DNA of 64,000 nucleotides from an uncultured Clostridia bacterium (lineage in GTDB: Bacteria; Bacillota; Clostridia; Oscillospirales; Ruminococcaceae). Numbering within the stretch: position 1 is the stretch's first letter; the number at the start of each line of letters is the position of its first letter. The stretch covers positions 1 through 64,000 of the forward strand of contig CANQXS010000006.1 of assembly GCA_947627875.1 (NCBI GenBank), written 5' to 3'. The position numbers and the translations under genes are program-made. Under the pieces are notes generated by a model, which was not told the origin of the DNA, did no database searches, and worked only from the letters and a program-made list of their open reading frames with translations. Positions 6,853 to 22,792 of this stretch are shown piece by piece.

Positions 6853-8430
6853 ATGACAGAGGAACTGATAAACCAAAGCCCTGCCGAGGAGCTTTCGGGC
6901 GAGGAGATAAACGAGCTGAAGAGAATAAGAATGGATAAGCTCGAAGCCCTCAAAGCCGACGGCAAGAACCCGTTTTTGATAACCAGCTTCGATTGGAACA
7001 TAACGAACTCCGAGCTAAAGGCGTATTACGTTAAGGAAGAAGAAAAGGCGAAGGAAGCCGCCGCGGGCGACGAAGAAGCCTTTGCCGCCGCTCTTGAAAA
7101 GATAAAGGAGACAAAATGGCGCGTTGCGGGAAGAATCCTCTCCCGCCGCGATATGGGAAAAGCCAACTTTATCGATATGCAGGACTCCACCGAGAGAATG
7201 CAGGTTTATATCCGCTCGAACGACGTTGGCGACGAGACCTTTGCCGACTTCAAGAAGTGGGATATAGGCGACATCGTAGGAATAGAGGGCTTCGTTTTCC
7301 GCACCCGCAGGGGCGAAATATCGCTCCACGCCACCGCAATAACCCTGCTCTCGAAGTCGCTGCTGCCGCTCCCCGAAAAGTGGCACGGCTTAAAAGACCG
7401 CGACACCCGCTACCGCCAGCGCTACGTTGACCTTATAGTCAACCCCGACGTAAGAAAGACCTTCATCACCCGCTCGAAGATAATAAGCTCTATCCGCCGC
7501 TGGCTCGATTCTCAGGGCTTTATCGAGGTCGAGACCCCGATGCTCGTTCACAACGCGGGCGGAGCCGCCGCAAGACCCTTCGAGACCCATTTCAATGCCC
7601 TTAACGAGGACCTGAGGCTCAGAATTTCGCTCGAGCTCTACCTTAAAAGGCTTATAGTCGGCGGGATCGACAGGGTTTATGAAATAGGGCGCGTATTCCG
7701 CAACGAAGGGCTCGACACCCGCCATAACCCCGAATTCACCCTTATGGAGCTCTATCAGGCTTATACCGACTACCACGGAATGATGGACCTGACTGAAAAC
7801 CTTTACAGGCACGTCGCCGAAGAGGTTTTAGGCACAACGCAGGTCCCTTGGGGCGACGTTGTCATCGACCTCGGCAAGCCGTTCGAGAGGATTACTATGG
7901 TCGACGCTGTGAAAAAGTATGCCGGCATCGATTGGAATGAGGTAAAATCCGACGAGGAAGCCTTTAAGATAGCCGACGAAAAGCATCTTGAATACGACAG
8001 AAAGCGCCATAAAAAGGGCGATATCCTCAACCTTCTGTTTGAAGAATACGTTGAGGAGCACCTCGTTCAGCCCACGTTCATAACGGATCACCCCGTTGAG
8101 ATAAGCCCGCTGACCAAGCGCAAGCCCGACAACCCCGACTATGTCGAGCGGTTCGAGATGTATATAAACTGCGGCGAGATGTGTAACGCCTACAGTGAGC
8201 TCAACGACCCGATAGACCAGCGCGAGCGGTTTATGAGGCAGGAGGAGCTTTTAAAGCTCGGCGATGAGGAGGCAAATTCGATAGACGAGGACTTTATGCG
8301 CGCCCTCGAAATAGGTATGCCCCCCACGGGCGGCATCGGCTTCGGCATCGACAGAATGATAATGCTCTTAACGAATTCCAGCGCGATAAGAGACGTTTTG
8401 CTCTTCCCAACGATGAAGTCCTTGAACTGA
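6853..8430 (+). CDS. lysS: Lysyl-tRNA synthetase, class II, with element-supplied C-terminus
   Basis: 525 residues. OB-fold anticodon-binding domain at ~60-175, then the class II core: motif 1 around FIEVETPMLVHNAGGAAARPFET, motif 2 in RVYEIGRVFRNEGLDTRHNPEFT, motif 3 in GIGFGIDRMIMLL near the end. It charges tRNA-Lys. An N-terminal extension of about 40 residues is longer than in the E. coli enzyme. The last residues FPTMKSLN are partly encoded by a mobile element that recombined at 8410-8418; the displaced native ending FPTMKSLEK is found at 22055-22084. The enzyme should stay active because only the last residues change. Confidence 0.96.
   Translation: MTEELINQSPAEELSGEEINELKRIRMDKLEALKADGKNPFLITSFDWNITNSELKAYYVKEEEKAKEAAAGDEEAFAAALEKIKETKWRVAGRILSRRDMGKANFIDMQDSTERMQVYIRSNDVGDETFADFKKWDIGDIVGIEGFVFRTRRGEISLHATAITLLSKSLLPLPEKWHGLKDRDTRYRQRYVDLIVNPDVRKTFITRSKIISSIRRWLDSQGFIEVETPMLVHNAGGAAARPFETHFNALNEDLRLRISLELYLKRLIVGGIDRVYEIGRVFRNEGLDTRHNPEFTLMELYQAYTDYHGMMDLTENLYRHVAEEVLGTTQVPWGDVVIDLGKPFERITMVDAVKKYAGIDWNEVKSDEEAFKIADEKHLEYDRKRHKKGDILNLLFEEYVEEHLVQPTFITDHPVEISPLTKRKPDNPDYVERFEMYINCGEMCNAYSELNDPIDQRERFMRQEELLKLGDEEANSIDEDFMRALEIGMPPTGGIGFGIDRMIMLLTNSSAIRDVLLFPTMKSLN
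8404..8425 (+). other. attL of the 13.65 kb element (in lysS 3' end)
   Basis: TTCCCAACGATGAAGTCCTTGAA at the lysS 3' end matches TTCCCGACGATGAAGAGCTTGGA at 22055. The exact shared core is ACGATGAAG (8410-8418). Left of it is native lysS; right of it the element restores frame and stop (Ser-Leu-Asn-stop). Confidence 0.85.
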
Positions 8431-8525: not shown

Positions 8526-8550
8526 AATGCCCTCAAAACCGGCATTAACG

Positions 8551-8582
8551 GCGTCCCGTTCTTATGAGCGGGGCGCTTTTTT
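8551..8582 (+). terminator. Rho-independent terminator at left end of element
   Basis: GCGTCCCG (8551-8558) and CGGGGCGC (8569-8576) form a stem, followed by TTTTTT. It would stop greA-lysS transcription, and in the excised circle any transcription crossing attP, before the small terminase gene. Confidence 0.75.
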
Positions 8583-8601: not shown

Positions 8602-9030
8602 ATGGCTGTTAATCGCGGAGGCAGACCGGCACTCTACTCAGAGCCGTCGAAAATGCAACAGGCAGTTGAGGCTTATTTTGAATTTTGCGCAGGAAAAACG
8701 GTATTTGATAAAAACGGCAGACCTATAACCGTGGACGCACACCCGCCTACAATAACAGGTCTTGCTTTGGCGCTCGGCTTTTCCTCACGCAAAGGTTTGT
8801 TTGATTATCAGCGCAAGCCGATGTTTCGCGACATTGTAGATACCGCTAAGCTTCGTGTGGAGCAGTACGCAGAAGAAAGCTTGTTTGATAGTGAGCGGGT
8901 CAATGGGGCAAAGACCTATCTCTTGAGTTGTTTTCACTGGGGCGGCGAAGCTAAAAAAGAAAAAAGCAAGGTCACAGCTACACAGGTCAGAATTATTTAT
9001 AAATCAACAGACACGGAGGCATTACCATGA
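8602..9030 (+). CDS. Phage terminase small subunit (gp3-like DNA packaging)
   Basis: 142 residues from the ATG at 8602 (AGAGGTG upstream); an in-frame ATG at 8527 is less likely because the intervening segment overlaps the terminator. The pattern GRPALYSEPSKMQQAVEAYF, then HPPTITGLALALGFSSRKGLFDY, then an amphipathic helix and WGGEAKKE matches the P22-gp3-type packaging family. Small terminases recognise pac/cos DNA and guide the large subunit. No large terminase exists in this element, so a helper phage would have to provide the motor. Its ATGA overlap with the next gene indicates coupled translation. Confidence 0.85.
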   Translation: MAVNRGGRPALYSEPSKMQQAVEAYFEFCAGKTVFDKNGRPITVDAHPPTITGLALALGFSSRKGLFDYQRKPMFRDIVDTAKLRVEQYAEESLFDSERVNGAKTYLLSCFHWGGEAKKEKSKVTATQVRIIYKSTDTEALP

Positions 9031-9437
9031 AAGCGCACATTTCAGCAAGCAGCAGTAAAATAGCGGTTCCGATTAAAGATAAAACCGGAAAAGCGGTCTG
9101 CACAGTGTTTCTTGATCCGTCAGGCGCAGAATTTAAGAAGAAATATCGGAAAGCGATCGGCAAAATCAAGAAAATAGGTGAGCGGCTTATTAACATAAGT
9201 ATCAATGCTGACGGCAGTCCTGCCGATCCGCAATATGCCAAAGCTCTGAACAAAGCGGAACGTGAAACAAAGCAGATCATAAAAGAGCTTTACCCGATGG
9301 ACAACGACTATTTGTTTGAAATCCGTAGACCGTTTGCGTCTGTTAAAGGTGATTTTTACTGTACGCACGTTCTGACTTTACTGCAAAACGCAGTGCAGAA
9401 TATATTAAATACCAATTCGGCAAGTGGGGTGATTTAA
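9027..9437 (+). CDS. Unknown phage-type protein before the tape measure
   Basis: 136 residues, overlapping the terminase stop by 4 bp. Sequence is not recognised: a short beta-rich N-terminus (ISASSSKIAVPIKD), a basic helical middle and a C-terminal helical end. In tailed phages the gene at this position before the tape-measure gene is often a tail tube or tail assembly chaperone. That role is only suggested by position. Confidence 0.6.
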   Translation: MKAHISASSSKIAVPIKDKTGKAVCTVFLDPSGAEFKKKYRKAIGKIKKIGERLINISINADGSPADPQYAKALNKAERETKQIIKELYPMDNDYLFEIRRPFASVKGDFYCTHVLTLLQNAVQNILNTNSASGVI

Positions 9438-9538
9438 TGTTTATTCCTGAGTTTGTGTGCGGGCTTATCGTTGGCGCTGTCGGCGCGACAGCGGCTATTT
9501 TCACTGCTGCGATCCTGTACCAGAAGAAGAAAAAGTAA
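9437..9538 (+). CDS. 33-residue membrane peptide
   Basis: Starts at the last base of the previous stop (TAATG overlap) and reads MFIPEFVCGLIVGAVGATAA then a short hydrophobic stretch and a QKKKK tail: one membrane span with a basic cytoplasmic end. Too short for most gene finders, but the coupling to the upstream gene and clean reading frame support expression. Function unknown; a holin-like or tail-associated peptide is conceivable. Confidence 0.5.
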   Translation: MFIPEFVCGLIVGAVGATAAIFTAAILYQKKKK

Positions 9539-9577
9539 AACAGCAAACACATCATAGGCGAAAGGTGGTGAAAAAAT

Positions 9578-12500
9578 ATGGCAGATGTAAATGACGGCTC
9601 GCTGATATTCGATACTGAATTAGACGAAAGCGGTTTTGAAAAAGGTACAAATAAGCTGCTTTCAATGATTAAGTCGCTGACCGATGAGGTTCACATGATG
9701 GGCGACAATATGATGTCCTCATTCAACAAGGTAATACCCCTCTTACAATCTGTGGCTAATTCTGCGGCAACAATCAGTGAAAATCTGACGGGGACAGCTA
9801 CACAGACGACGGCGGCGAATGAACAGATCATTGACACCGAACAGCGGGTCAGCGATTCCGTTAAGCACGCCGCCGACGACATAACTCACCAGACCGAAGT
9901 CACCGAGAATTACGGCGGTGCGGCTCGCAGTGTGCAGGGTTCGGTTTCCTCACTGGAAAAGGAAATCAATTCTCTTAGTTCGGGATTACAGTCAGTTTCC
10001 AGTAGTGCAGAGACAGGTTTTGCAAACGGCAACGCCGTACTGGCTTTTGACAGTAAAATCCGGGCGCTTGAGCAGAGGCTTGAGGAAGCCCGTACAAAGC
10101 TCGCTGAGTTTGGCAATACAAGCTTACCAACCGAGGCGTACACGACGCTCTCAGCGCAAATCTCAAAGGCTGAGCAAGCATTATTCCGTCTGTACGATAG
10201 ACGCGACACGATGGAAGAAATGGGCGTCAAGGAAAGCTCTAAGCAGTGGGAACGTCTCGCTATTCAGATTGAGAACGCCGAAGCGCTTGTAGCTCAATAT
10301 GAGCGGGAGCGTGACAATCTGGCGTCAAACGGCGGTGCGTTTATCAAGGGATCTGAGACGGACGAATATTCACGTATGCAGGCGTCACTTGACGCGGCAA
10401 ACGATACGCTTGTCCGAAACAAGAGCCTGATAGATCAGGAAGCCCTCGCACAGGCGCGCCTGAACGTCCTCACGGCGCAGGAAGCCGTCGCGTCGGCTAA
10501 TACCACACAGGCACGTGAAGCGGCGTTAGAGCGCCTAAGAGCCGCACAGGCGGAGCTTAACAACTTGGCTAACTCTATGTCGAACAAAACCGACACCGGC
10601 GAAATGGCACCCACAGAAGCGAAAATAAGCGCATGGACGCGTTTCGGTGCGGCTTTACGTTCCTCCGGGAGCGCGGCGCTCAGCGTGACAGCTACACTGG
10701 CGAAGATACCGTTTCAGGTGACAGCAAAAGGAATACAAAAACTATCTTCCGGTATCAAAACCTTTATCAACAATGCGAAAAAAGCACACAAAGAATCTAA
10801 CTTCCTTGTAAAATCGCTCACCAGTCTGAAACGTATGCTTATTACCAGAATTAAGCGTATGTTTATCAGCGCGATTTTCAACGAGGTCAAAGAATCCTTA
10901 AAAACACTCGCTCAATTCTCCGACGCGTTTAATGACGCTATGTCAAATGTTAAGAACGGGTCGAAAGAGCTGTCCGGCAATCTCGCAGTCAGCCTCGGAA
11001 ACGTCCTACAGAGCTTTGAGCCTATCATTACCGGCTTGCTTGATAAGCTGTCAACTGTATTCACCTACATAAATGCTTTATTCGCGGTATTGAGTGGAAA
11101 ATCCACTATGACTGTAGCAAAAAAGCAGACCGAATCATACCGCGACAGTTTAGATGACGCGGCGGACTCGGCAAAAGATCTGAAAAATCAGGTTTACGGA
11201 TTTGACGAGCTGAACAAGCGCAGCGGCGATAACGGTTCCGGGTCTAAAGATGGGTCGGATCTTTACGAGGAAGTCCCGATAGAATCCGTCATACCGGAAA
11301 AGCTCAAAGAGACGTTTGACGAGCTTAAAGACCTTTGGGACAACGGCGAATACTTCAATTTCGGAAAGAAATTTGCAGAGCTGTTAAACTCGGCTATTCA
11401 GTCGGTAGACGATTGGATAAACGGCACATTCCGTCCAAAAGGCGTGGAGTGGACTAAGAACATTTCCGAAGTCTTAAACGGTGTCGTCGCCGGTTTTGAT
11501 TGGAGCTTGTTAGGAAAAACTATCGCCGACGGAATGAACGCGATAGCAGACATTTTTAATACGTTCTTTACAACATTCAATTTTGAAGCGCTCGGAAAGG
11601 GCATAGGCGAAAGCGTAAACAGTTGGTTCAGTAATATCGACTGGCAGCTACACGCAACGACGATAGCGAACGGATTAAACGCTATAATCAGTCTGATTCA
11701 CGGTTTTGTCACTGAACTTAACTGGGCGGCAGCCGGTGATTCAATCGCGACTTTCGTTCAGACGTTCTTTGAAGCGGTCGATTGGAATAAAGCCGCTGAT
11801 ACGATCTCGACGGCAATAAACGGAATTGTGGACACATTCCAACACTTTATCGACGGCGTAGACTGGCACGGTATAGGCTCAGATCTGACGTCAAGTCTGT
11901 CTGACGCGCTAATCGGTATTGACTGGAAAGCGACGTTTCAAGCAGTTGTAGACGGTGTTAATTCTCTTGAAGAACTGATTTTAGGCGCGATTCACGGTAT
12001 TGACTGGGGCGGCGTTGCTACCGCGCTTGGCGAGGGCATAAACGGTCTCGATATTCAGGAATTGCTTACAAACGCGTTTCAGATTATTACCGACTTTATT
12101 TCCGGCGCGCTGACATTTGCAACAGAGTTTATTGAAACGGTAGACTGGTCTGAACTCGCTCAAAAGCTGTGGGATAGTTTTGTTAAGATCCTCACCGACA
12201 CGGATTGGCTCGGTTTGGTGCGTCAGGCGTTTGAGCTGTTAGGCGCAGCTATCGGTGGCGCAGGTGCTTTTATCGTAACTTTAGGTGAAAACATCTGGGA
12301 CGCTCTTAAATCCGCTTGGGAAGACGTCAAGACCTATTTCAGCGAATATATAGACGCCTTTGGTGGAGATATTGTAGACGGTCTGTGGGCGGGTATCAAA
12401 AACGCTTTTGCTAATGTCGGCACTTGGATTTATGATAACCTGCTGTTGCCGTTCTGGAATGCCCTTTGTGACGCGTTCGGTATTGCCTCACCGTCAACGG

Positions 12501-13777
12501 TTATGATGGAAGCAGGAAAATATATCGTTGAGGGATTCCTCAACGGCATTACAAGCGCTTGGCACACGATCACCGATTTCTTTGGTGACGCGTGGGACGG
12601 TATCAAAACCACTGCTTCTACAGCTTGGGACGCTGTTAAAACTAAAGCTTCTACCGCATGGGAGGGTATAAAGTCAAGCGCTATCGGTGAAAAAGTTTCC
12701 GGCATTATCTCAAATGCTAAAGACATGGGATCGGAAATCAAAACTAACCTCTCGACCGCGTGGGATAATGTCAAAACTAAAGCCTCTAACGCTTGGAGCA
12801 ATATCAAAACTACTATCGCGGATAAAGTGTCGCAGACGAAAGATAAAGTCAGCGAAACAAGCGATAAAATCAAAACCGGGCTGTCTGACGCATGGTCTGA
12901 TACCAAATCCGACGCAACGGAGCTGTGGAGCGAGATTAAAACATCGGTTTCGGATAAATTCAACACTCTGAAAACCGCTCTTGACGCCACTTCAAACAAC
13001 ATCAAAACAGCAATTCAGAAATCTTGGACGTCGGTCAACACTGAGGCAAAAACCTCTTGGCAGACTATCAAGACGACTGTTTCCAACCTGTGGACGAGCT
13101 TGAAATCCGAGCTTGGAAAAACGGATTGGCGCTCTTTGGGGTCTAACCTTGTAAACGGTATCAAATCCGGTATTTCAAGTGCTTGGGCTTCCTTAAAATC
13201 CACTGTAAGCAGCTTAGCGTCCGGTCTTACAAGTACATTGAGAAGCGTGTTCGCGATTCATTCCCCGTCTAAAGTATGGGCCGAGATAGGCGAATACTTA
13301 GACTTAGGTCTGAAAAAGGGCATGAAAGACGAGGAACATTCCGTGCTGTCTACCGTCGCCGATATGGCGAAAAACATTAACAGCGAATTAGGCACAGAAC
13401 AAGCTACACTACAGATTGGCGCTGAAAGCGACGCGCTGTTAAGCCGACTGAACGGAATAGCTGAACGTCTGGCATATATCGTGAACGCGTTCAGGGGCAT
13501 AAACGACGCGCTCAACCGTATGACCGTGTTCAACATTCCGGCGATAGCGTCAGGCGCGGAAGTGCCTTATAAGACACGTCTCAGCGCAGACACGCCCGGT
13601 ACTCAGACGGTCGGTATCTCAGACGATCTGGACGAGCTGTTATCCGATCACTCTTACCTGCTCAGACAGATTCTTGCATTACTTGAGCGCTCTAAGCTCG
13701 GCATTAACTCAGATGAGCTTGCACAGGCTATCGCCTACGCTTTACGCGGCGCTACAAGAGGATACGGAAGCGTTTAG
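9578..13777 (+). CDS. Phage tail tape-measure-like protein
   Basis: 1399 residues, AAAGGTGGTG before ATG. The N-terminus (NDGSLIFDTELDESGFEKGTNKL) is the start typical of Clostridia phage tape-measure proteins. Coiled-coil with Ala/Glu repeats spans ~20-340. A region of ~35-residue repeats built on G-x-N-A-I-I/V-D-W motifs (~590-880) has Trp-rich spacing. A second Trp/Lys repeat zone (~1000-1190, SxAWDxVKTKAS) follows. The terminal domain has FAIHSPSKVWAEIGEYLDLGLKKG, a motif found near the end of many tape measures. In phages it sets tail length and passes DNA. No other tail gene accompanies it here, which is odd. Tail length implied at ~1.5 A per residue is about 200 nm. Confidence 0.85.
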   Translation: MADVNDGSLIFDTELDESGFEKGTNKLLSMIKSLTDEVHMMGDNMMSSFNKVIPLLQSVANSAATISENLTGTATQTTAANEQIIDTEQRVSDSVKHAADDITHQTEVTENYGGAARSVQGSVSSLEKEINSLSSGLQSVSSSAETGFANGNAVLAFDSKIRALEQRLEEARTKLAEFGNTSLPTEAYTTLSAQISKAEQALFRLYDRRDTMEEMGVKESSKQWERLAIQIENAEALVAQYERERDNLASNGGAFIKGSETDEYSRMQASLDAANDTLVRNKSLIDQEALAQARLNVLTAQEAVASANTTQAREAALERLRAAQAELNNLANSMSNKTDTGEMAPTEAKISAWTRFGAALRSSGSAALSVTATLAKIPFQVTAKGIQKLSSGIKTFINNAKKAHKESNFLVKSLTSLKRMLITRIKRMFISAIFNEVKESLKTLAQFSDAFNDAMSNVKNGSKELSGNLAVSLGNVLQSFEPIITGLLDKLSTVFTYINALFAVLSGKSTMTVAKKQTESYRDSLDDAADSAKDLKNQVYGFDELNKRSGDNGSGSKDGSDLYEEVPIESVIPEKLKETFDELKDLWDNGEYFNFGKKFAELLNSAIQSVDDWINGTFRPKGVEWTKNISEVLNGVVAGFDWSLLGKTIADGMNAIADIFNTFFTTFNFEALGKGIGESVNSWFSNIDWQLHATTIANGLNAIISLIHGFVTELNWAAAGDSIATFVQTFFEAVDWNKAADTISTAINGIVDTFQHFIDGVDWHGIGSDLTSSLSDALIGIDWKATFQAVVDGVNSLEELILGAIHGIDWGGVATALGEGINGLDIQELLTNAFQIITDFISGALTFATEFIETVDWSELAQKLWDSFVKILTDTDWLGLVRQAFELLGAAIGGAGAFIVTLGENIWDALKSAWEDVKTYFSEYIDAFGGDIVDGLWAGIKNAFANVGTWIYDNLLLPFWNALCDAFGIASPSTVMMEAGKYIVEGFLNGITSAWHTITDFFGDAWDGIKTTASTAWDAVKTKASTAWEGIKSSAIGEKVSGIISNAKDMGSEIKTNLSTAWDNVKTKASNAWSNIKTTIADKVSQTKDKVSETSDKIKTGLSDAWSDTKSDATELWSEIKTSVSDKFNTLKTALDATSNNIKTAIQKSWTSVNTEAKTSWQTIKTTVSNLWTSLKSELGKTDWRSLGSNLVNGIKSGISSAWASLKSTVSSLASGLTSTLRSVFAIHSPSKVWAEIGEYLDLGLKKGMKDEEHSVLSTVADMAKNINSELGTEQATLQIGAESDALLSRLNGIAERLAYIVNAFRGINDALNRMTVFNIPAIASGAEVPYKTRLSADTPGTQTVGISDDLDELLSDHSYLLRQILALLERSKLGINSDELAQAIAYALRGATRGYGSV

Positions 13778-13807
13778 GGCAGTGGTAAGGGCCCTTACAA
13801 AAAGATC

Positions 13808-13833
13808 AGGAGCGGGCAATATAACCCGCTCCT
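13808..13833 (+). terminator. Hairpin after the tape-measure gene
   Basis: AGGAGCGGG (13808-13816) pairs with CCCGCTCCT (13825-13833). No T-run. A similar hairpin (GGGGCGGG / CCCGCTCC) sits at 20477-20499 before the integrase, so it may be an element-specific structure. Confidence 0.5.
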
Positions 13834-13881
13834 GTCAAACGCTCTTACAGGTAGATAATAAATCATACTGCAAATGGCTGT

Positions 13882-14024
13882 CTACAGAAATGTCTACAAA
13901 TTTGACTACAGTTTTATAATTTGTAGTCAAATTTTACTACAAAATCTACAATGCTACTACAATATTGTAGACGCTTCAAATCCTTTATTTACGCTGTTTT
14001 TAATACTTTGTCTACACTTCTACA
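13882..14024. repeat. CTACA iteron cluster in 504-bp non-coding gap
   Basis: Ten CTACA pentamers in 143 bp: plus strand at 13882, 13894, 13906, 13938, 13946, 13957, 14012 and 14020, minus strand at 13922 and 13966. Several belong to TGTCTACA or GACTACA contexts and spacing of the first three is exactly 12 bp. The segment is AT-rich and lies in the only long non-coding gap of the element (13778-14281). A replication origin or a terminase packaging site are the likeliest readings. The rest of the gap holds short inverted stretches (for example CGCACACG.../CGTGCG near 14090-14113) and no gene I can support. Confidence 0.6.
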
Positions 14025-14281
14025 ATATAGTCTAAATAGACTTAAAAAATGGCGTATAGGGGATATAAATACCGCCTAACACGCCTGAACGCACACGTCT
14101 ATAACGCGTGCGTGAGACTGTAGTTTGCGTCGTAACACCCGCTCATGTTAAGGATAAACTTACAGCAACAAGAAAGCACCATTTTGATAATCGCCCGTGG
14201 TGCAGTAAAGTAACGCTCATACGCGCGCGGGTAAGAAGCTGACCGCAGTGGGCGGAATGTAACATCGGAGTTGAAAGCTAA

Positions 14282-15052
14282 ATGACCAACGAGGAATTAG
14301 TTACTCTCATCAAAGCCGGAGACAGAAGCAAAATGTTTGACTTGTGGCAGCAGAATCAAGGCTTTATCTGCAAAAAAGCTCAGAAAATACTAACGGCGCT
14401 GACCGACGCCGGACGTTGCGGTGCGGATTTTGATGATCTCGTACAGACAGCATACATAGGACTTGACAAAGCGGTAAAAGCTTATGATCCTGACAAAGGT
14501 TTTGCATTTATTACCTACTTTGGCAAGGTGCTTAACTCTGTCTTATGGAACAGCGTCGGCTTTCACGACGGCGCTATGTCTGACGCGTTGGATAACTCGG
14601 TCAGTCTTGAAACGCCGCTCGGAAACGAACCCGGTTGCGAAACGCTTGAAGATGTCATAGCCGATTCCGCTGATGAAGCAGGCGAGGTCATAGACGATAT
14701 ATGTATGCAACAGCTACACGGGATTATTGAGGAGGTACTGTCTGAATCTGAAAAGACCCGTGCAGACGTTATAAAAATGCACTTCTTCTTGGATATGACT
14801 AATGATGAAATAGCAGAAAAAACCGCTGTACCGGTCTGCTTAGTAAAACAGTGGCTGACAATTCCTGCTTTGCGCCGGGAGTTAAAAGGCTTGAAAGCCG
14901 ATAAGTACAGGTCGGCAATAGATCAGGTGCTCGACCTGAGAACAGACTTTTATAAAACCGGAAGTGCCAAAAATCAATCGAATCCTGTAGAACCCATTGT
15001 TGAGTGGCGGGAACAGCAAAGAGAGAAATATACAAAACGGCTGTTTCAATAG
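14282..15052 (+). CDS. Sigma-70-like regulatory protein of the element
   Basis: 256 residues, start preceded by CGGAGTTGAAAG. Residues ~30-100 (DFDDLVQTAYIGLDKAVKAYDPDKGFAFITYFGKVLNSVLW) are a clear sigma region 2 (core binding and -10 recognition). Residues ~155-195 (RADVIKMHFFLDMTNDEIAEKTAVP) look like a degenerate region 4 HTH. Phages and mobile elements of Firmicutes use such factors to drive late genes. It may activate the terminase/tape-measure operon, which is transcribed in the same direction but lies upstream of it. Confidence 0.75.
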   Translation: MTNEELVTLIKAGDRSKMFDLWQQNQGFICKKAQKILTALTDAGRCGADFDDLVQTAYIGLDKAVKAYDPDKGFAFITYFGKVLNSVLWNSVGFHDGAMSDALDNSVSLETPLGNEPGCETLEDVIADSADEAGEVIDDICMQQLHGIIEEVLSESEKTRADVIKMHFFLDMTNDEIAEKTAVPVCLVKQWLTIPALRRELKGLKADKYRSAIDQVLDLRTDFYKTGSAKNQSNPVEPIVEWREQQREKYTKRLFQ

Positions 15053-15133
15053 CGTACAATGAAATCAATAACGGCGCAGAAAGCGCATAAATAAAAGCTT
15101 TGTCGGACACCTCAAGAGAAGAAATCGACAAAA

Positions 15134-15152
15134 TTATATCAATATTATATCA
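15134..15152 (+). repeat. Internal paired TTATATCA repeats
   Basis: TTATATCAATATTATATCA: same two direct copies with 11-bp period as at the left end (8507-8525). Its presence between the late-type genes and the repressor is unexplained; it may be a shared regulator site rather than an integrase arm site. Confidence 0.5.
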
Positions 15153-15163
15153 AAAAAATTATA

Positions 15164-15195
15164 AAGCCCTCTTTCCTTGACATTAAAGAGGGCTT
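15164..15195. terminator. Bidirectional terminator between convergent genes
   Basis: AAGCCCTCTTT (15164-15174) and AAAGAGGGCTT (15185-15195) form an 11-bp stem, with A-rich sequence on the left and T-rich on the right, between the sigma-like gene and the convergent repressor gene. Confidence 0.8.
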
Positions 15196-15213
15196 GCTTG
15201 ACTTACAGCAGCA

Positions 15214-15828
15214 TTATTTTAAATGGGGATTGTTTTTGTCGAGATCATCTTTTAGTGACTGCAACCTTTTTTCTAACAGAGCTTCCAAATCGTCTTGAGA
15301 AATAACTTCTCTTGCTCCATCAAGTTTTTTCAAGCCTGAAATAAAGCGCTCATTCAGGTAGTTATTTTTATAATCGAAATCGCTGTCGCGATAAACCGGG
15401 AAAATAACAGCAGGATATTTGATTTCTCGATTTGTATACTCATACGGTTCAGGCTCAGGTCCGTCATCATAATTCGGCGGTGCAAGTTCAGCAATAGCTA
15501 CTTCTTCAATCGATATACGTCCAACTGAAAGCCAATCTGCGAGGATCTGAGCTATACCGTAAGTAGAAATATCTGTTTTCCCCTTTTTCCCACGTCCTAA
15601 TAACTCATCAACAGAAACATCAAAATAGTTTGCAAGCGCTATAAGTTCAGCCGAGTTTGGTAGGGCTTTGGAATTTACCATATTTGACACTTTGCTCTGA
15701 TAGATTCCCGTTCCCTCTGCAACATCTGTCTGATTACAATCTTTTGCTGTCATAAGATCCGTGAGTTTTTTGCCAAGAACACGTTTTATATCTGCTTTAT
15801 CTGGTTGCAGATTTTCAATCTTATTCAA
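15214..15828 (-). CDS. XRE-family repressor of the lysS element
   Basis: 204 residues from a TTG at 15828 with GGAGG 8 nt upstream; in-frame codons further upstream run through the promoter region and lack a ribosome site. HTH at ~15-70 (LGKKLTDLMTAKDCNQTDVAEGTGIYQSKVSNMVNSKALP, DVSVDELLGRG). The C-terminal half is acidic and Pro-rich, then helical, without a LexA-like Ser-Lys protease signature I can see. It is divergent from the excisionase-like and primase genes. The 17-bp palindrome at 15931 is the likely operator. It is the probable master repressor, in the position of Stl in staphylococcal islands. Confidence 0.8.
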   Translation of the reverse strand: MNKIENLQPDKADIKRVLGKKLTDLMTAKDCNQTDVAEGTGIYQSKVSNMVNSKALPNSAELIALANYFDVSVDELLGRGKKGKTDISTYGIAQILADWLSVGRISIEEVAIAELAPPNYDDGPEPEPYEYTNREIKYPAVIFPVYRDSDFDYKNNYLNERFISGLKKLDGAREVISQDDLEALLEKRLQSLKDDLDKNNPHLK

Positions 15829-15930
15829 TGATATAACCTCCAATATTTTATATAAAATCCAGATAATAAAATCTAAAAACTCATATAATATCTGAATTGC
15901 ATATATTATATCATTGTGATACAATAATGT

Positions 15931-15947
15931 CAAGACGAAACGTCTTG
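15931..15947. promoter_or_regulatory. Palindromic operator of the divergent region
   Basis: CAAGACGAAACGTCTTG: perfect 7-bp arms with AAA centre, 33 bp before the 15980 gene. Half-similar copies AAGACGGAACGTGA and AAGACGGAATGTGA occur near attR (about 21950 and 22022). Upstream AT-rich sequence 15840-15930 holds both divergent promoters. Confidence 0.6.
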
Positions 15948-15979
15948 AAAAGTTATAAATTTTTAAGGAGGAGTATCTC

Positions 15980-16192
15980 ATGCAGATGAGAAACAAAACG
16001 CACTTCCCTGAGCAGGAAGTGAAAACGGGCGGCATAGATGAAGCTTGCACCCGTTATTGTTTGGGAAAAGCGACAATGAGAAAAGTGGCTGAATCGGCGA
16101 ACGCGGTAATTAGAATAGGGAAACGCTATCTTGTAAATTTTGAAAAAGTGGACAGGTACTTAAACAGCATTTCAGATGACGGGAGGCCCTAA
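15980..16192 (+). CDS. Small excisionase-like HTH protein (DUF6462-like)
   Basis: 70 residues, AAGGAGGAG 9-14 nt before ATG. The core ACTRYCLGKATMRKVAESANAVIRIGKRYLVNFEKVDRYLNS has the helix-turn-wing pattern of excisionase/AlpA-like proteins, closest in my memory to Clostridia DUF6462 proteins. It is the first gene of the rightward operon after the divergent operator and is followed 3 bp later by the primase gene. Likely excision or early regulation. Confidence 0.65.
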   Translation: MQMRNKTHFPEQEVKTGGIDEACTRYCLGKATMRKVAESANAVIRIGKRYLVNFEKVDRYLNSISDDGRP

Positions 16193-16195
16193 CGC

Positions 16196-18511
16196 ATGAG
16201 TGAGACCAAAAGCCTTAAAAGCTCAGCGCTGCATTACGCGTCAATGGGTTGGAAAGTTTTCCCGCTCAGACCGGGCGCTAAAACTCCCGCAACGCGAAAC
16301 GGATTTAAAGACGCCACTACAGATTACGCAAAGATAGAATCGTGGTGGACAAGCAATCCGGATTATAATATAGGCTTTGCGACCGGAGATAATCTGTTTG
16401 TGATCGATGTTGATAAGGGCGAGGGAAAAGACGGGGATATAGCCTTGAGATTCTGGCAGACTATTAACGGGCAGTTCCCGGTTACATCAAGCACAGAGAC
16501 GCCCAGAGGCGGCAGACACTATTTTTTCAGATCTTCCGAAGCAGTAAAAAGCCGTGTCGGGGTATTTGAGGGGGTAGATGTACGCGGACTGGGCGGATAT
16601 GTTGTTTTACCGCCGAGTACAGTCAAAGGAAAGGTTTACATGTGGATTGATCACCCGAGTATTGTCGGAATTTCAGAAGCCAATGAAAACGTGCTTGCAT
16701 TTGTACAGCACGGAAGCAAAAAGCCGACAAATGCAGACGCAGAGGCGGGAAAGCGCTCCGATGATGAGCCCGAAGCTTTACCTGCAATTCTTACCACATC
16801 TGACGACGGCAAATCTCTTGGTGAAATTTTGGCGGCATTTGCAGAGCGGGGAATTACGCTTCCACCGTGGGCAGCGACAGAGGTCCCGGAGGGAAAGCGA
16901 ACAGATACATTAGTACGCCTGCTTGGATTTTTTCAAGGAATAGGCTTGGCGGATTCTGACCTGTACGCAGTTATCAGAGCATTTAATGCTGAGTGCTGTA
17001 ATCCTCCGCTTGAGGATTCAGAGCTTGTCAGAGAGGTATTTCCCGCTTTGGCTCGATGGGTAAAAGGATCATCACCTCAAGCAAAAATGCTTGCCCTGCT
17101 TTGCGAACTGCGCGAAATCAGACCAGAACAGCGTTTTAAGTGGTCCGACGCGGGGAATGCCGAATTATTTGCAGAACTTTCTGCTGACAGGTTTAAATAT
17201 GTTCACCAACGGCGGGCATGGTATGTATATCGCGGAAAAGTATGGGAAAAGGACACTACTAACCAGAGTTATACCGCCGATCAAGCAAGAAGTATCGGCA
17301 ACGCGCTAAGCAGCTACACGGCTGACTTGTCAGATGAAAAAATCCGCGCGGAATATAAGAAGTTTGTAGGCAAATGGCAGACACTTAAAACGCGTGAGAC
17401 GATTTTAAGGGATTCCGCAACATTGCCGAGGCTGTGCTTGGGAGTTGAAGCTTTCGACCAAAACCCTTATCTGCTGAACTGTTTAAACGGAACTCTCGAC
17501 TTGCGCGCCGCGGATTTTTGGGAGCATGATCCCGGGGACTTGTTAAGCCGTATCTCCGGTGTAAGCTTTGACCCCACCGCAAAATGTGACCGGTGGATCC
17601 AATTTATTGACGAAATCACTGAGGGCGACGTGGAACTTGCAAGATACATTCAAAAGATTCTGGGGTATTGTCTTTCAGGCGACACGTCACGAGAGTGCTT
17701 TTTCATTGCATACGGACCCATGTCCCGAAACGGCAAGGGTGTTTTAATTGATGTTTTTAGTCGGCTTCTTGGCGACTATGCTTCGGCGGCGTCACCTGAG
17801 ACGTTAGCACTCCGTAAAAACTCCGATTCGCGGCTTGCGTCAGGCGACATAGCCCGATTGCAGGGATCACGCTTTGTTGCTGTTTCAGAACCCGGTAAGG
17901 ATCTGACGCTCAACGCAGCGCTCGTAAAACAATTAAGCGGCGGGGACACCGTTACCGCAAGGGCGCTTTATGAAAGCGAGATTGAATTTAAGCCGCAGTT
18001 TAAGCTGTTTATTGCAACTAACCATTTACCGTATGTATCAGATTCGACGCTTTTCACATCTGACCGGTTGAAAGTCATTCCGTTCAATCGTCATTTTTCG
18101 GAAAGAGAACGGGATCCCGAGCTCAAAAGAAAGTTGACAACTCCCGAGGCCCTGAGCGGCGTTTTGAACTGGGCGCTTGAGGGGTGGAAGATGTTACAGT
18201 CTGAGGACCTGACGGATCCGCCTGCTGTTAAGCAGGCGATAAACGACTATCAGTCAATCGCAGATAAAGTTGGTTGCTTTGTTGCCGATCAGCTTCAATC
18301 CGCAGAAAATAAAAAGACCCCGCTCAAGCAGGTTTATACTGCATATCAATACTGGTGCGGCGAAGCAGGCTTGCGCCCGGAGGGTATCAGTGAATTTCTA
18401 AAATCTCTTGCTTCCGCAGGGATTATAACCAAACGGGCGCGGCCTGACGGCGCAGAAAGAACAGCGGCAGCGGCTCAAATGATAATTGGCTACAAGCTGA
18501 AAAATAGTTAA
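16196..18511 (+). CDS. Prim-Pol / D5-type primase-helicase
   Basis: 771 residues. N-terminal bifunctional primase/polymerase domain (~10-165) shows GWKVFPLRPGAKTPATRNGF, FVIDVDKG with the metal-binding Asp-x-Asp, and GGRHYFFR. Middle D5_N-like domain (~300-470) then SF3-type helicase with Walker A GPMSRNGKG (~507-515), Walker B region and a sensor FIATNHLPYV. This is the P4-family phage/plasmid replication protein; satellites such as P4 and SaPIs use the same plan to start replication at their own origin. The nested palindrome immediately after the stop is a candidate origin. It gives the element autonomous replication capacity after excision. Confidence 0.93.
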   Translation: MSETKSLKSSALHYASMGWKVFPLRPGAKTPATRNGFKDATTDYAKIESWWTSNPDYNIGFATGDNLFVIDVDKGEGKDGDIALRFWQTINGQFPVTSSTETPRGGRHYFFRSSEAVKSRVGVFEGVDVRGLGGYVVLPPSTVKGKVYMWIDHPSIVGISEANENVLAFVQHGSKKPTNADAEAGKRSDDEPEALPAILTTSDDGKSLGEILAAFAERGITLPPWAATEVPEGKRTDTLVRLLGFFQGIGLADSDLYAVIRAFNAECCNPPLEDSELVREVFPALARWVKGSSPQAKMLALLCELREIRPEQRFKWSDAGNAELFAELSADRFKYVHQRRAWYVYRGKVWEKDTTNQSYTADQARSIGNALSSYTADLSDEKIRAEYKKFVGKWQTLKTRETILRDSATLPRLCLGVEAFDQNPYLLNCLNGTLDLRAADFWEHDPGDLLSRISGVSFDPTAKCDRWIQFIDEITEGDVELARYIQKILGYCLSGDTSRECFFIAYGPMSRNGKGVLIDVFSRLLGDYASAASPETLALRKNSDSRLASGDIARLQGSRFVAVSEPGKDLTLNAALVKQLSGGDTVTARALYESEIEFKPQFKLFIATNHLPYVSDSTLFTSDRLKVIPFNRHFSERERDPELKRKLTTPEALSGVLNWALEGWKMLQSEDLTDPPAVKQAINDYQSIADKVGCFVADQLQSAENKKTPLKQVYTAYQYWCGEAGLRPEGISEFLKSLASAGIITKRARPDGAERTAAAAQMIIGYKLKNS

Positions 18512-18521
18512 ATGTGCTTAA

Positions 18522-18616
18522 TGTGTGCTTCGTGTGCTTTCTTTTCTGTAAACCCCTATATATACTATAATTCTTATATATATACTTTACAGAAACAGAG
18601 GCACACGAAGCACACA
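18522..18616. repeat. Nested 95-bp palindrome after the primase gene (origin candidate)
   Basis: Outer arms TGTGTGCTTCGTGTGC (18522-18537) and GCACACGAAGCACACA (18601-18616) are perfect 16-bp complements. Inner arms TTTCTGTAAA (18543-18552) and TTTACAGAAA (18586-18595) are perfect 10-bp complements. The core is AT-only TATATATAC-type sequence. It begins 11 bp after the primase-helicase stop. The outer arm also holds direct GTGTGCTTcGTGTGCTT repeats. It could be the replication origin or, less likely, a terminator. Confidence 0.65.
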
Positions 18617-18647
18617 CCTAAAATTTTCCAAAAGGAGAAAAAGAACT

Positions 18648-19214
18648 ATGTTAGTATCGTATTTCAGTGCTTCACTTAACCGGTTTATAGAGTGTGACGA
18701 AGCAAAAAAGCTTTCGCCGGGCGATCTTAAAAAACTGTTGGCTGAGTTGGCAGAGAGAAACGGTCACAAAATAGTGTGGCGCAATGATCGGGTTTGTGAC
18801 TTGCTTCCGGTAATACGCGGCGTTTTTCCGTGGTATGACGCGCCGATCAACGATGTAGTTGATTACTATTTTGTAAAATATGATTTTGCCGATGATGTGT
18901 CCTTTAAAATCAATGAAAATATTGACTTCGACAGTTACAGCATAGCAGGAATTTTCGATGATTCGCACGGTTATATTTTACTGCTTCACAAGAACGCAGG
19001 CGGACCGTTTTCTTGGTGTGTGCAGTATGCCGGTGGTGGGAAATACTTCAACGACTTTCACAGTGCGGCGGTTTATGTAATATACCGTTTCAACGGAAAG
19101 CTTACGTCCGATGAATACAATAAGCTGATGACGGCTGTTGAGGAACACAGTCGAACCGGTGAACCGCTCAAATACCCGCTTTCAAATTCAGCAAGTCAAC
19201 GCCTCCCTGCGTAA
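18648..19214 (+). CDS. Unknown element protein
   Basis: 188 residues, AAAAGGAGAAAAAG before ATG. Mixed alpha/beta, no signal peptide or membrane span, no motif recognised. The acidic, aromatic-rich middle (FPWYDAPINDVVDYYFVKYDFADDVSF) is notable. It stands alone after the palindrome and may be transcribed from inside it. Accessory genes at this position in satellites often interfere with helper phage; nothing in the sequence proves this. Confidence 0.6.
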   Translation: MLVSYFSASLNRFIECDEAKKLSPGDLKKLLAELAERNGHKIVWRNDRVCDLLPVIRGVFPWYDAPINDVVDYYFVKYDFADDVSFKINENIDFDSYSIAGIFDDSHGYILLLHKNAGGPFSWCVQYAGGGKYFNDFHSAAVYVIYRFNGKLTSDEYNKLMTAVEEHSRTGEPLKYPLSNSASQRLPA

Positions 19215-19229
19215 GTCAGACAGCGTGAG

Positions 19230-19442
19230 CTACACCGCGTCAGTTACATATTCAAGAATATCTCCCGGCTGACAGTTAAGCAGTCGGCAAAGTGCTTCGA
19301 TGTTTTCCCAAGATACCGGTTCTGAATTTCTTAGCTTTTGCACGGTAGATTCGCTGAGCAGCTTTTCTTTTCTGATCTTGTATGTAGTTATCCCTACAGA
19401 TTTAAGCGCGTCAAGCACATTCATTTTGTATGTCATTGGCAT
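19230..19442 (-). CDS. Small XRE/Cro-type HTH protein
   Basis: 70 residues from ATG at 19442 with GGGGGC 7 nt upstream; a longer reading through upstream codons lacks a ribosome site. LKSVGITTYKIRKEKLLSESTVQKLRNSEPVSWENIEALCRLLNCQPGDILEYV is a minimal Cro-like HTH of the YozG/DUF-type family common in Clostridia. It is divergent from the small gene operon 19651-21802 and may control the integrase branch. Confidence 0.8.
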   Translation of the reverse strand: MPMTYKMNVLDALKSVGITTYKIRKEKLLSESTVQKLRNSEPVSWENIEALCRLLNCQPGDILEYVTDAV

Positions 19443-19650
19443 TATATACGCCCCCATAATATTTATTTGAAATATTGTAACATATTTTATGCACGAAATC
19501 AAGTGTATAAAATAGACAAATACGTGCGCTAATTTTCGTGTATATTGCCTATTGATTATGAACGAGAAATAGTGTATATTATAATTACAGTCAAGGAGAA
19601 AACAACCTCCACCCACCACCAAAAAATTTATTGAAAAGGGGATCATTACA

Positions 19651-19932
19651 ATGACAAACAGACAGCTTGACAACCGCGTTAAGAAGCTCCAAGAACTTGA
19701 GGCACAGATCAGCGACTTTGAAGCTCAGGCAGACGCCCTCCGGGGCGAACTCAAAGCCGACCTCACCGAAAAGGGAGAGGACGAACACAACACCGGCAGC
19801 TTCATCATCCGTTGGAAAGAGATCATAAGCAAGAGGCTTGACAGCAAAGCTCTCAAAGCCGCTCTTCCGGACGTGTTCAACACCTACAGCAAGGAAAGCA
19901 GCAGCAAGCGCTTCACAGTTACAGCCGCTTGA
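19651..19932 (+). CDS. Small coiled-coil phage protein
   Basis: 93 residues, AAAAGGGG upstream. N-terminal coiled coil (~1-45, LDNRVKKLQELEAQISDFEAQADALRGELKADL) then a short beta part and KALPDVFNTYSK-like helix ending SKRFTV. Similar small proteins occur in early regions of Clostridia phages; function unknown. A terminator hairpin follows directly. Confidence 0.6.
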   Translation: MTNRQLDNRVKKLQELEAQISDFEAQADALRGELKADLTEKGEDEHNTGSFIIRWKEIISKRLDSKALKAALPDVFNTYSKESSSKRFTVTAA

Positions 19933-19943
19933 CGCAAGAAAAA

Positions 19944-19977
19944 GTCCCCGGAGGCTTGCACAGAGCCCACCGGGGAC
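19944..19977 (+). terminator. Hairpin after the coiled-coil gene
   Basis: GTCCCCGG (19944-19951) pairs with CCGGGGAC (19970-19977), with extra pairing inside the loop. No T-run. Confidence 0.55.
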
Positions 19978-20052
19978 GACCCCACCACCATGGGATCAGC
20001 TATATTATAGCAGATCGACTAATAAAAATCAAGATATGAAAGGAAATACAAT

Positions 20053-20286
20053 ATGGACACTATTAAAACTCTATTCTTAGAATACTTGGAAAGTAACAGT
20101 AAGGATCCAAAAGAAGCGGAAGTATCTAAAATCAGCGGTCTGCTTGACACAGCGATAGAAGCCGGGAGAAAAAATGAAGCGATAGAAAAAGCCGCTGACT
20201 ATGAGCTCGCAGCGCGTGAAGCGGGATTTTACGCCGGATTTAAGGCGGCGCAGTCAATTCTTAATAAAACGGAGGCGAGTAATTGA
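20053..20286 (+). CDS. Small helical protein, unknown
   Basis: 77 residues, predicted all-helical and charged, with an Ala-rich C-terminal half (AADYELAAREAGFYAGFKAAQSIL) typical of small phage proteins. AAAGGAAATACAAT precedes ATG. It ends one base before the next gene's ATG region; probably one operon through the integrase. Confidence 0.55.
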   Translation: MDTIKTLFLEYLESNSKDPKEAEVSKISGLLDTAIEAGRKNEAIEKAADYELAAREAGFYAGFKAAQSILNKTEASN

Positions 20287-20287
20287 A

Positions 20288-20464
20288 ATGGCGAAAACTT
20301 TACATCTCGATCTGTCGCAAATCGGAGAGGCGGACAAGCGTAATCTATGCAGTACGTTCTTAGACGCGATAGAAAGATTCTACGATGATCCGGAAAACGT
20401 AAAAAAGTTTAACGCTTGGAAGAAAGCACAGCACCCGGACGCTTCATCTCAGGAGAAATATTAA
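20288..20464 (+). CDS. Small conserved phage/ICE-type protein
   Basis: 58 residues from ATG at 20288 with GAGGCG upstream. It reads as one helix followed by FYDDPENVKKFNAWKKAQHPD. The ending resembles another small gene in this window (56977-57150: FYESEEGQREFAEWKWQQE), so both probably belong to one family of small proteins found next to recombinases in Clostridia. Function unknown. Confidence 0.55.
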   Translation: MAKTLHLDLSQIGEADKRNLCSTFLDAIERFYDDPENVKKFNAWKKAQHPDASSQEKY

Positions 20465-20521: not shown

Positions 20522-21802
20522 ATGGCAAAACAGGAAGTAAAAAAGAGAAAAGACACAAAGGGGCGCAACCTTAAAGACGGCGAAATGCAACTACCCGATG
20601 GGCGATATAAATATCAGTACATAGACGCAAAGGGCGCGCGCAAAGCTGTTTACAGTTGGAAACTTTTGCCGACTGATCGGATCCCCGCAGGAAAGCGCGA
20701 CAGTTTAAGCTTGCGTGAAAAGGAAGAAGAGATAGCCGCTGACAACCGGGACGGGATAGATGGCAAGGCAGCAGGTAAAATCACACTTAACCAGATGTTT
20801 GAAATCTATATGTCCGGCAAGGTTAATTTAAAGCAGTCTACCCGCACAAATTACCTCTATATGTACCAAAATTACATATATGACACCATAGGCACGAGAG
20901 CTCTGAAAAGCATTAAATACAGCGATATAATCCAGTTTTATAACGCGCTGATACAGGAAAAAGGATTCAAGCCGAACAGCATGGAGATAATTCATACAAT
21001 TCTGCACCCGACATTTACTTTAGCTGTACGCGACGGATATATCAGAACGAACCCGACCGAGGGCGTTATGGCTGATATAAAGAAAAGTCATAACTGGGAA
21101 AAGCCGAAGCGGCACGCGCTGACCGTTGTCGAACAAAGCCTGCTGATATGTTTTCTCTCTCAGTCTGAGATGTACGGTCACTGGCTCCCGATGATTACAA
21201 CCTTTTTAGGAACCGGTTGCCGCGTCGGTGAGCTGATCGGTCTGAGATGGCAGGACATAGACTTTAAAAACGGCACTATAAGCATAAATCACAATCTGAT
21301 ATATCGACAGCAGGATAACGGTCACATGGAGTTGCACGTTACCACTCCGAAAACAAGCGCAGGTTGTAGAACTATACCGCTGTTAAAAGAAGTACGCGAA
21401 GCCTTACAGCAGGAGCGTATCAAGCAGTTACAGACCGGAGGGAAAAGCGTGACGGTGGACGGCTATACAGGTTTTATATTTACCAACCGCTTCGGAGATG
21501 TGTATACACCGATGTCAATCAACAGGGCGATTGACAGAATAATTCTCGCGGCTAACGCTTGGGAAGCAGAGCGGGCGGCTGAGGAGCTGAGAACGCCGGT
21601 TGTTATTCGGCATTTTTCCGTTCATAATTTGCGACATACGTTCTGCACCCGCTTTTGTGAAAACGAAACCAACATAAAAGTTATTCAAGAGATAATGGGT
21701 CACAGCGATATAACGACCACTATGAACATATACGCCGAGGCAACGGAACAAAAGAAAAAAGAAGCGTTCATAAACCTTGAGGGCAAGATAAAAATTTCAT
21801 AG
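20522..21802 (+). CDS. int: Tyrosine integrase of the lysS element
   Basis: 426 residues, GGAGG upstream. N-terminal arm-binding region (~1-60), SAM-like core-binding domain (~80-185), catalytic domain (~190-426). Active-site residues: Arg234 in GTGCRVGELIGLRW, His368 and Arg371 in HNLRHTFCTRF, MGHSDI box, nucleophile Tyr404 in MNIYAEA. It lies 260 bp from attR in the 3' end of lysS, the usual arrangement, and is followed by a strong terminator. It should catalyse integration at and excision from the lysS 3' end. Confidence 0.95.
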   Translation: MAKQEVKKRKDTKGRNLKDGEMQLPDGRYKYQYIDAKGARKAVYSWKLLPTDRIPAGKRDSLSLREKEEEIAADNRDGIDGKAAGKITLNQMFEIYMSGKVNLKQSTRTNYLYMYQNYIYDTIGTRALKSIKYSDIIQFYNALIQEKGFKPNSMEIIHTILHPTFTLAVRDGYIRTNPTEGVMADIKKSHNWEKPKRHALTVVEQSLLICFLSQSEMYGHWLPMITTFLGTGCRVGELIGLRWQDIDFKNGTISINHNLIYRQQDNGHMELHVTTPKTSAGCRTIPLLKEVREALQQERIKQLQTGGKSVTVDGYTGFIFTNRFGDVYTPMSINRAIDRIILAANAWEAERAAEELRTPVVIRHFSVHNLRHTFCTRFCENETNIKVIQEIMGHSDITTTMNIYAEATEQKKKEAFINLEGKIKIS

Positions 21803-21854: not shown

Positions 21855-21883
21855 TTGACTTGCGTACTGAAAAGAGGTATAAT
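21855..21883 (+). promoter_or_regulatory. Outward-reading consensus promoter at right end
   Basis: TTGACT (21855-21860), 17 bp, TATAAT (21878-21883). It lies after the integrase terminator and reads out through attR toward the restriction-modification genes; in the excised circle it would read across attP toward the terminase gene. Confidence 0.6.
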
Positions 21884-22054: not shown

Positions 22055-22084
22055 TTCCCGACGATGAAGAGCTTGGAGAAGTAA
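22055..22084 (+). other. attR with displaced native lysS 3' tail
   Basis: TTCCCGACGATGAAGAGC... continues in frame as Thr-Met-Lys-Ser-Leu-Glu-Lys-stop (ACG at 22061, TAA at 22082-22084), the expected native ending of lysyl-tRNA synthetase. It is not attached to any gene here. With 8410-8418 it defines an element of 13,651 bp. Confidence 0.85.
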
Positions 22085-22791: not shown

Positions 22792-22792
22792 T

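Follow-up and report, generated by a model that had tools for sequence, protein, structure and literature searches.

Does a short integrated element that carries a small terminase (TerS), a tail assembly chaperone (TAC) and a full tape measure protein (TMP), and little else of a virion, represent a phage satellite or what is left of a prophage? The question is raised by the first 64 kb of contig C6 (the window) of an uncultured Clostridia bacterium with a 2.57-Mb genome in 50 contigs. There, 13,651 bp lie between att cores at 8404 and 22055, which are two copies of the lysS 3' end: the gene ends at 8430, its 3' end is duplicated at 22055, and the att-core copies read TTCCC(A/G)ACGATGAAG. This spacing agrees with the 13.65 kb given in a preliminary description of the locus. 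We incline, with somewhat more confidence than doubt, to a phage satellite at lysS whose TerS would direct the packaging of a helper phage to satellite DNA and whose TAC and TMP would enter chimeric tails; such an element would probably build part of its own tails on borrowed phage particles.

Gene identities (Table 1) come from PHROG and Pfam profile matches, which recovered the integrase, repressor, excisionase-like, primase-helicase, TerS and 1399-residue TMP genes already recognised in the preliminary description. The TAC gene (orf136), located between TerS and TMP, the 33-residue peptide, the sigma-like gene and the CTACA cluster had been missed. The element TerS shares 39-47% identity with ten homologues from related (pro)phage loci, and its start at 8602, as first proposed, is plausible given AGAGGTGA just upstream, the terminator-like hairpin ending at 8577 and the homologue alignments, most of which leave out at least the first 25 residues of the longer frame. 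PHROG and Pfam show nothing notable for orf136; blastp relates it to a prophage protein of genome G158 whose gene stands second upstream of TMP, and there the neighbour of the TAC gene is Pfam Phage_Gp15. With the G158 protein and the homologue from G282 as queries, a scan of viral contigs yielded 32 loci, and a hidden Markov model (HMM) of 24 sequences (22 distinct ones from these loci and the two seeds, orf136 excluded) was run against 552 window open reading frames (ORFs): orf136 scored E = 5.4e-15 and the next ORF E = 1.5. The 33-residue peptide has no PHROG match. The element TMP can be aligned end to end with a phage TMP, and the best of eight phage TMPs in global alignment has 37% identity to it over 1,108 positions. 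Since some TMPs of phages of the same kind have 1393-1398 residues, nearly the length of the element TMP, we only infer that the latter would alter tail length.

What else of a phage does the element hold? Comparison of 288 stop-to-stop peptides of at least 25 residues, from both strands, with 646 ORF products of 47 phage and prophage loci (E <= 0.01) matched only TerS, TAC, TMP, the primase and one small helix-turn-helix (HTH) protein, and further head or tail genes of the kind found in related phages were not recognised, intact or broken. The large terminase (TerL), portal, capsid, tube and baseplate genes or remnants by which a prophage would be known were thus not found, in line with the preliminary description, which had nevertheless overlooked one tail gene, the TAC. 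Pfam and PHROG scans of the named proteins turned up no lysis genes, no separate lysis-gene search having been made, and the element proteins scanned contain no relaxase or conjugation domain. No gene for capsid-size redirection was recognised; orf188, orf93, orf77 and orf87 are without assigned function.

Two sisters inform on the nature of the element. An 18-kb query of window DNA against 31 genomes of the genus identified the element core at lysS in a single further genome (G414, locus L133), with the repressor at 55%, the excisionase-like protein at 44%, the primase at 72%, orf188 at 73% and the integrase at 70% identity. Here 6,908 bp separate the att copies, lysS is followed at once by the repressor gene, and there is no TerS, TAC, TMP or sigma-like gene. 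In G412, 87 bp resembling left-end DNA follow lysS before the contig ends. A second sister emerged from viral-contig loci with a related TerS, some of them records met through other queries: in the best 80 of 226, a TerL match lies downstream in 68, three end too soon and nine show none. One of the nine, L310, is a 7,469-bp IMG/VR contig with the order VapE-like protein, TAC, 117-residue ORF, TerS, relatives of orf93 (68%), orf87 (44%) and orf77 (39%), integrase (70%), promoter, 83-residue ORF and a lysS-type attR, lysS itself being off the contig. TerS and TAC stand here in another order and place than in the element, the replication gene differs (VapE-like), and the 7.5 kb, which begin inside that gene, contain no TerL and no visible TMP. 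Another of the nine, L298, has a portal gene. L331 (IMG/VR contig 3300010275_000439), with a DnaB-type helicase, TerS, an orf93 relative (32%), part of a distant integrase (26%) and no TerL match, may be a satellite with only the TerS of the module.

Because one sister is bare and the other bears TerS and TAC, the element is best read as part of a satellite lineage with exchangeable morphogenesis genes, rather than as a decaying prophage; within this putative lysS family, sisters carry none or part of the module, and the bare one offers a natural control for it. Recent prophage decay is rejected as the principal explanation in view of the bare sister at the same att site, L310 with its TerS and TAC and no TerL, the lack of recognised remnants and the deep divergence of TAC and TMP. 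The initial proposal of a satellite is supported to that extent, and in part only as an overall interpretation. Relatives with a complete structural module, named at the outset as what would speak for a deletion derivative, did not appear among those fetched, the integrase having been compared only by tblastn against phage records; its four close matches examined had no module HMM match, and no genome-wide integrase search was made. Searches of viral contigs with TMP, with primase, with TAC by itself and with orf188 gave no relative, and primase alignment gave three weak ones. Primase relatives of up to 45% identity lie partly in prophages; 27 such stretches, tested with the HMMs, have no TAC or TMP match, further ones having been compared by blastp alone.

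Where might the module come from, and which phage could help? TAC was detected at E <= 1e-4 in 20 of 377 genomes of the family, the element's own included; at the other 19 places Gp15 always adjoins it (19/19) and TerS never does (0/19). A search of the taxonomic order found TAC in eight of 394 genomes, two of them already known. In one, G510, a TMP match comes immediately after TAC and no Gp15 match is seen, so absence of Gp15 is rare and not unique. TerS, TerL, portal, TAC, Gp15 and TMP occur together in four phage records; these were three of the four reached via TerS (G419-G421; not G422 in the stretches examined) and one of the 20 reached via TAC (G431, where the TerS match contains one TGA in a read-through search, yet a 171-residue frame exists). 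In each of these four, TAC-Gp15-TMP is found downstream of TerS and in the same orientation. The module HMMs were partly seeded from these phage loci, so E-values there are not independent. In two genomes of the family, 8-10 kb separate TerS from TAC on a single contig (G274:C44 and G306:C18). A siphophage carrying TerS, TAC and TMP together is the likely kind of helper. Siphophages with the TAC-Gp15-TMP cassette, which we take to be A118-like, would be the source families of TAC and TMP and, in some records, of TerS; unlike the element, they have a virion module and, in nearly all of them, Gp15 next to TAC.

From these pieces we propose the following sequence of events. A PICI-like core (integrase, repressor, excisionase-like protein and primase-helicase) is combined with a left-end operon of TerS, TAC, 33-residue peptide and TMP, with the sigma-like gene after it, and the helper would be a siphophage with the same TerS and TAC-Gp15-TMP families. 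The element would excise and replicate by its own primase. On the circle, the left-end operon would come to lie behind the integrase gene and the right-end promoter, and the leader hairpin and sigma-like factor could provide late control. Satellite TerS would then recruit helper TerL onto satellite DNA, and satellite TAC would load satellite TMP into tails whose tube, Gp15 and baseplate come from the helper, so that transducing particles would carry chimeric tails. A more specific version, in which a single exchangeable operon, active on the circle, couples TerS to TAC/TMP and sends satellite DNA out with satellite-specified tails, a convergent, non-Vibrio case of tail chimerism, we put forward tentatively, with rather more doubt than belief.

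Several observations weigh against the favoured interpretation. Of the 20 records reached via TAC, many of them fragments, 19 have no match to this TerS, and neither do G158, G282 and G103, the best TMP matches, so that TerS, TAC and TMP do not always form one set. Gp15, the usual TAC neighbour, is not present in the element, and no second satellite with TMP was found, the L310 contig beginning inside its replication gene. In the element's own genome, TerS, TAC and TMP each match the element only, and the DNA flanking the TerL matches on C10 (over the cut-off) and C2 (below it) has no module HMM match. A resident helper of the same kind was rejected on these grounds; the helper prophage with a matching large terminase that had been suggested as a check is not there in the form we envisage.

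One TerL in this genome is kept as a candidate partner of the satellite TerS because it belongs to the same broad family as the expected partner (HMM E = 2e-61), a family inferred from gene neighbourhoods alone; it may serve in this role. It lies in an isolated phage head locus (G000:C7, L248:11619-18532) made up of a 161-residue TerS-like ORF, TerL, portal, major capsid and three unknown genes. The scanned part has no integrase, tail or TMP match, and the downstream genes resemble, by eye, amino-acid biosynthesis genes. A TerL-like match is present in 30 of 31 genomes of the genus, and the nine loci examined, this one included, show two conserved versions. The head locus could be a domesticated capsid or gene-transfer-agent-like system.

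Could the element be a satellite whose TAC and/or TMP are mainly decoys that poison helper tail assembly and are dispensable for its own particles? In the TAC tree the two satellite TACs (element and L310) hold the two longest branches (3.53 and 2.38); a common satellite ancestry of these TACs is no more than possible, as the branches are long and the tree needs two changes. The long branches, the missing Gp15 neighbour and the presence in L310 of a TAC with no visible TMP would suit such a role, and tail assembly is described as a defence target in two reports (PMC11364771, PMC10884400). On the other hand, a full-length TMP that aligns end to end would be costly as a decoy, and the TAC and TMP pair is what chimeric assembly requires, as used by the PLE satellites (PMC12987554). 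We consider the decoy explanation unlikely. A deletion derivative, that is, a prophage that lost the interval from TerS to TAC, Gp15 and everything beyond TMP, would fit the arrangement in the four phage records, with TerS upstream of the cassette on the same strand; some prophages that have TerL and portal also encode related primases, and gain and loss of the module are not distinguishable from so few sisters. However, a bare sister occupies the same site (primase 72%, integrase 70%), L310 shows no TerL and has its TerS and TAC at a different position and in a different order, no remnants were recognised and start and stop codons overlap through TerS, TAC and the 33-residue peptide. Moreover, a TAC branch length of 3.5 and a TMP at most 37% identical to the phage TMPs compared argue against recent loss, making this origin improbable. 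That the phage genes are passengers without a transfer role on an integrative element is very improbable: related integrases (45-57%) do occur in other mobile DNA, once beside lysS (a 23-kb faecal-virome contig), yet the scanned element proteins have no relaxase or conjugation domain and TerS and TAC recur in L310 with the same type of integrase.

How does the element compare with known satellites? PICIs have an integrase gene, divergent repressor and excisionase genes, a primase-replication module and TerS without TerL, and capsid size redirection is not universal among them. The element has this gene set and is PICI/SaPI-like in that respect, but it adds TAC and a full TMP, and no capsid-remodelling gene was recognised. 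One report defines phage satellites by a size of 7-20 kb, att repeats, integrase, and regulation and replication genes (PMC13376191), all of which are found here. The element also has no complete virion module; in the strict form, with no structural protein at all, its TMP would set it outside. The closest precedent for TAC and TMP is provided by the PLEs of Vibrio cholerae, which are reported to have their own TAC, TMP and in part BhuB in chimeric tails, shown by western blot and mass spectrometry, with tail length by electron microscopy and with deletions; loss of tmp lowers transduction by about 96% (PLE1), 99% (PLE4) and 99.9% (PLE11), the PLEs are termed the first family known for chimeric tails, and the authors call for further work on the benefit (PMC12987554). 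The element likewise encodes both tac and tmp. We do not class it with the PLEs because the genus lies with the Clostridia, in another host phylum; in addition, its tail genes are of siphophage type whereas those of PLEs are of the ICP1 contractile type, and it differs further by its TerS, its Prim-Pol/D5 replication gene and its integration at lysS. The cf-PICIs also carry virion genes, and maps of some show putative tmp genes (Extended Data Fig. 10 legend, PMC12987554), but no capsid, portal or TerL, and hence no capsid and packaging set of its own, was recognised in the element. PICMIs, with no capsid-remodelling or terS gene reported (PMC10803314), and Streptococcus thermophilus satellites, said to be without structural genes (PMC13376191), have a similar small integrase and replication core, as in the G414 sister.

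The remark in the preliminary description that supplying a tape measure was not known from described satellites is thus out of date, given the PLE tails and putative cf-PICI tmp genes in that 2026 paper (PMC12987554), in which the chimeric-tail strategy itself was published. What would be new here is a siphophage-type satellite of Clostridia that combines TerS with TAC and TMP; no paper on a satellite with this combination appeared among those listed by full-text searches, which leave subscription papers and preprints largely outside. If the interpretation is correct, the TAC and TMP pair, plus TerS, is present in a second, apparently unrelated lineage besides the PLEs, the one family for which chimeric tails have been reported, and tail takeover would be a broader satellite strategy. 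The sisters and phages would then offer comparative handles on which genes suffice, whether the helper must supply Gp15 and whether tail length shifts.

Table 1. Features of the lysS element in window coordinates. Percentages are protein identities; L133 is the locus of sister G414.
Feature	Position	Strand	Basis and remarks
attL core TTCCCAACGATGAAG	8404..8418	+	Inside lysS 3' end
Putative integrase arm-type site TTTATATCAATTTTATATCAAA	8506..8527	+	Identical in sister element (alignment of two left ends); presumed role
Terminator-like hairpin, TerS operon leader	8550..8577	+	12 pairs, then TTTTTT
TerS, small terminase, 142 aa	8602..9030	+	PF16677 E=1.5e-13, phrog_606 E=1.2e-13; longer frame from 8527
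TAC (orf136), tail assembly chaperone, phrog_11299 kin	9027..9437	+	HMM E=5.4e-15; start overlaps TerS stop
33-aa hydrophobic peptide, at Gp15 position of related phages	9437..9538	+	Sequence; start overlaps TAC stop
TMP, full-length tape measure, 1399 aa	9578..13777	+	27 PHROG families, best phrog_1535 E=4e-72; frame intact; 33-nt repeats
CTACA/TGTAG cluster, between TMP and sigma-like gene	13882..14024	+	Ten motifs in about 145 bp; sole such cluster in window; may serve packaging, replication or regulation
Sigma-70-like factor, regions 2 and 4	14282..15052	+	Profile scans
Cro/C1-type HTH repressor	15214..15828	-	Open frame to 16050; likely TTG start 15828 after GGAGG; 55% to G414
Repressor promoter, perfect TTGACA-17-TATAAT	15905..15948	-	Consensus scan, sequence; palindrome TCAAGACGAAACGTCTTGA adjoining
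Excisionase-like, DUF6462	15980..16192	+	Profile scans; 44% to G414
Prim-Pol/PriCT/D5 primase-helicase	16196..18511	+	PF09250 and D5_N PF08706; 72% to G414
orf188, no assigned function	18648..19214	+	73% to G414
Small HTH_26 protein	19230..19457	-	Start uncertain, open frame to 19673; 58% to G414
orf93	19651..19932	+	68% to L310, 32% to L133
orf77	20053..20286	+	39% in both sisters (L133, L310)
orf87	20201..20464	+	44% to an ORF of L310
Tn916-type tyrosine integrase	20522..21802	+	PF02920/PF00589; 70% to both sisters
Outward promoter TTGACT-17-TATAAT after integrase terminator	21855..21883	+	Similar promoter in both sisters; presumed role
attR core TTCCCGACGATGAAG	22055..22069	+	Sequence

Control signals were sought by consensus scans, which are weak evidence here, with 33 promoter-like sites against 19.8 expected and 25 terminator-like sites against 15.1. 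The promoter after the integrase gene is TTGACT-17-TATAAT in the window and in G414 and TTGACT-17-GATAAT in L310, and in the integrated state it directs transcription out of the element. After excision and circularisation, transcription from it would cross attP and enter TerS; this TerS-driving role is a guess, because L310 has the 83-residue ORF before attR and G414 has no TerS following. The 186 nt around the CTACA cluster, taken as single-stranded DNA, fold better than 200 of 200 shuffles. The cluster does not occur in the G414 sister, and as the primase there is 72% identical, a replication origin common to the family is unsupported.

Directly outside attR, downstream of the outward promoter, lie genes for a BglII-type restriction endonuclease and an MT-A70 methyltransferase (22147-23467). 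Other lysS-adjacent DNA in the genus (G413 and G315) has a CGGTGTATACACC motif and encodes 1053- or 550-residue proteins with weak likeness to the primase-helicase, and lysS looks like an insertion hotspot. A relative of the genes for these proteins is present elsewhere in the element's own genome (G000:C23). The loci concerned are L134:2930-6091, L149:1861-3513 and L140:8831-10483.

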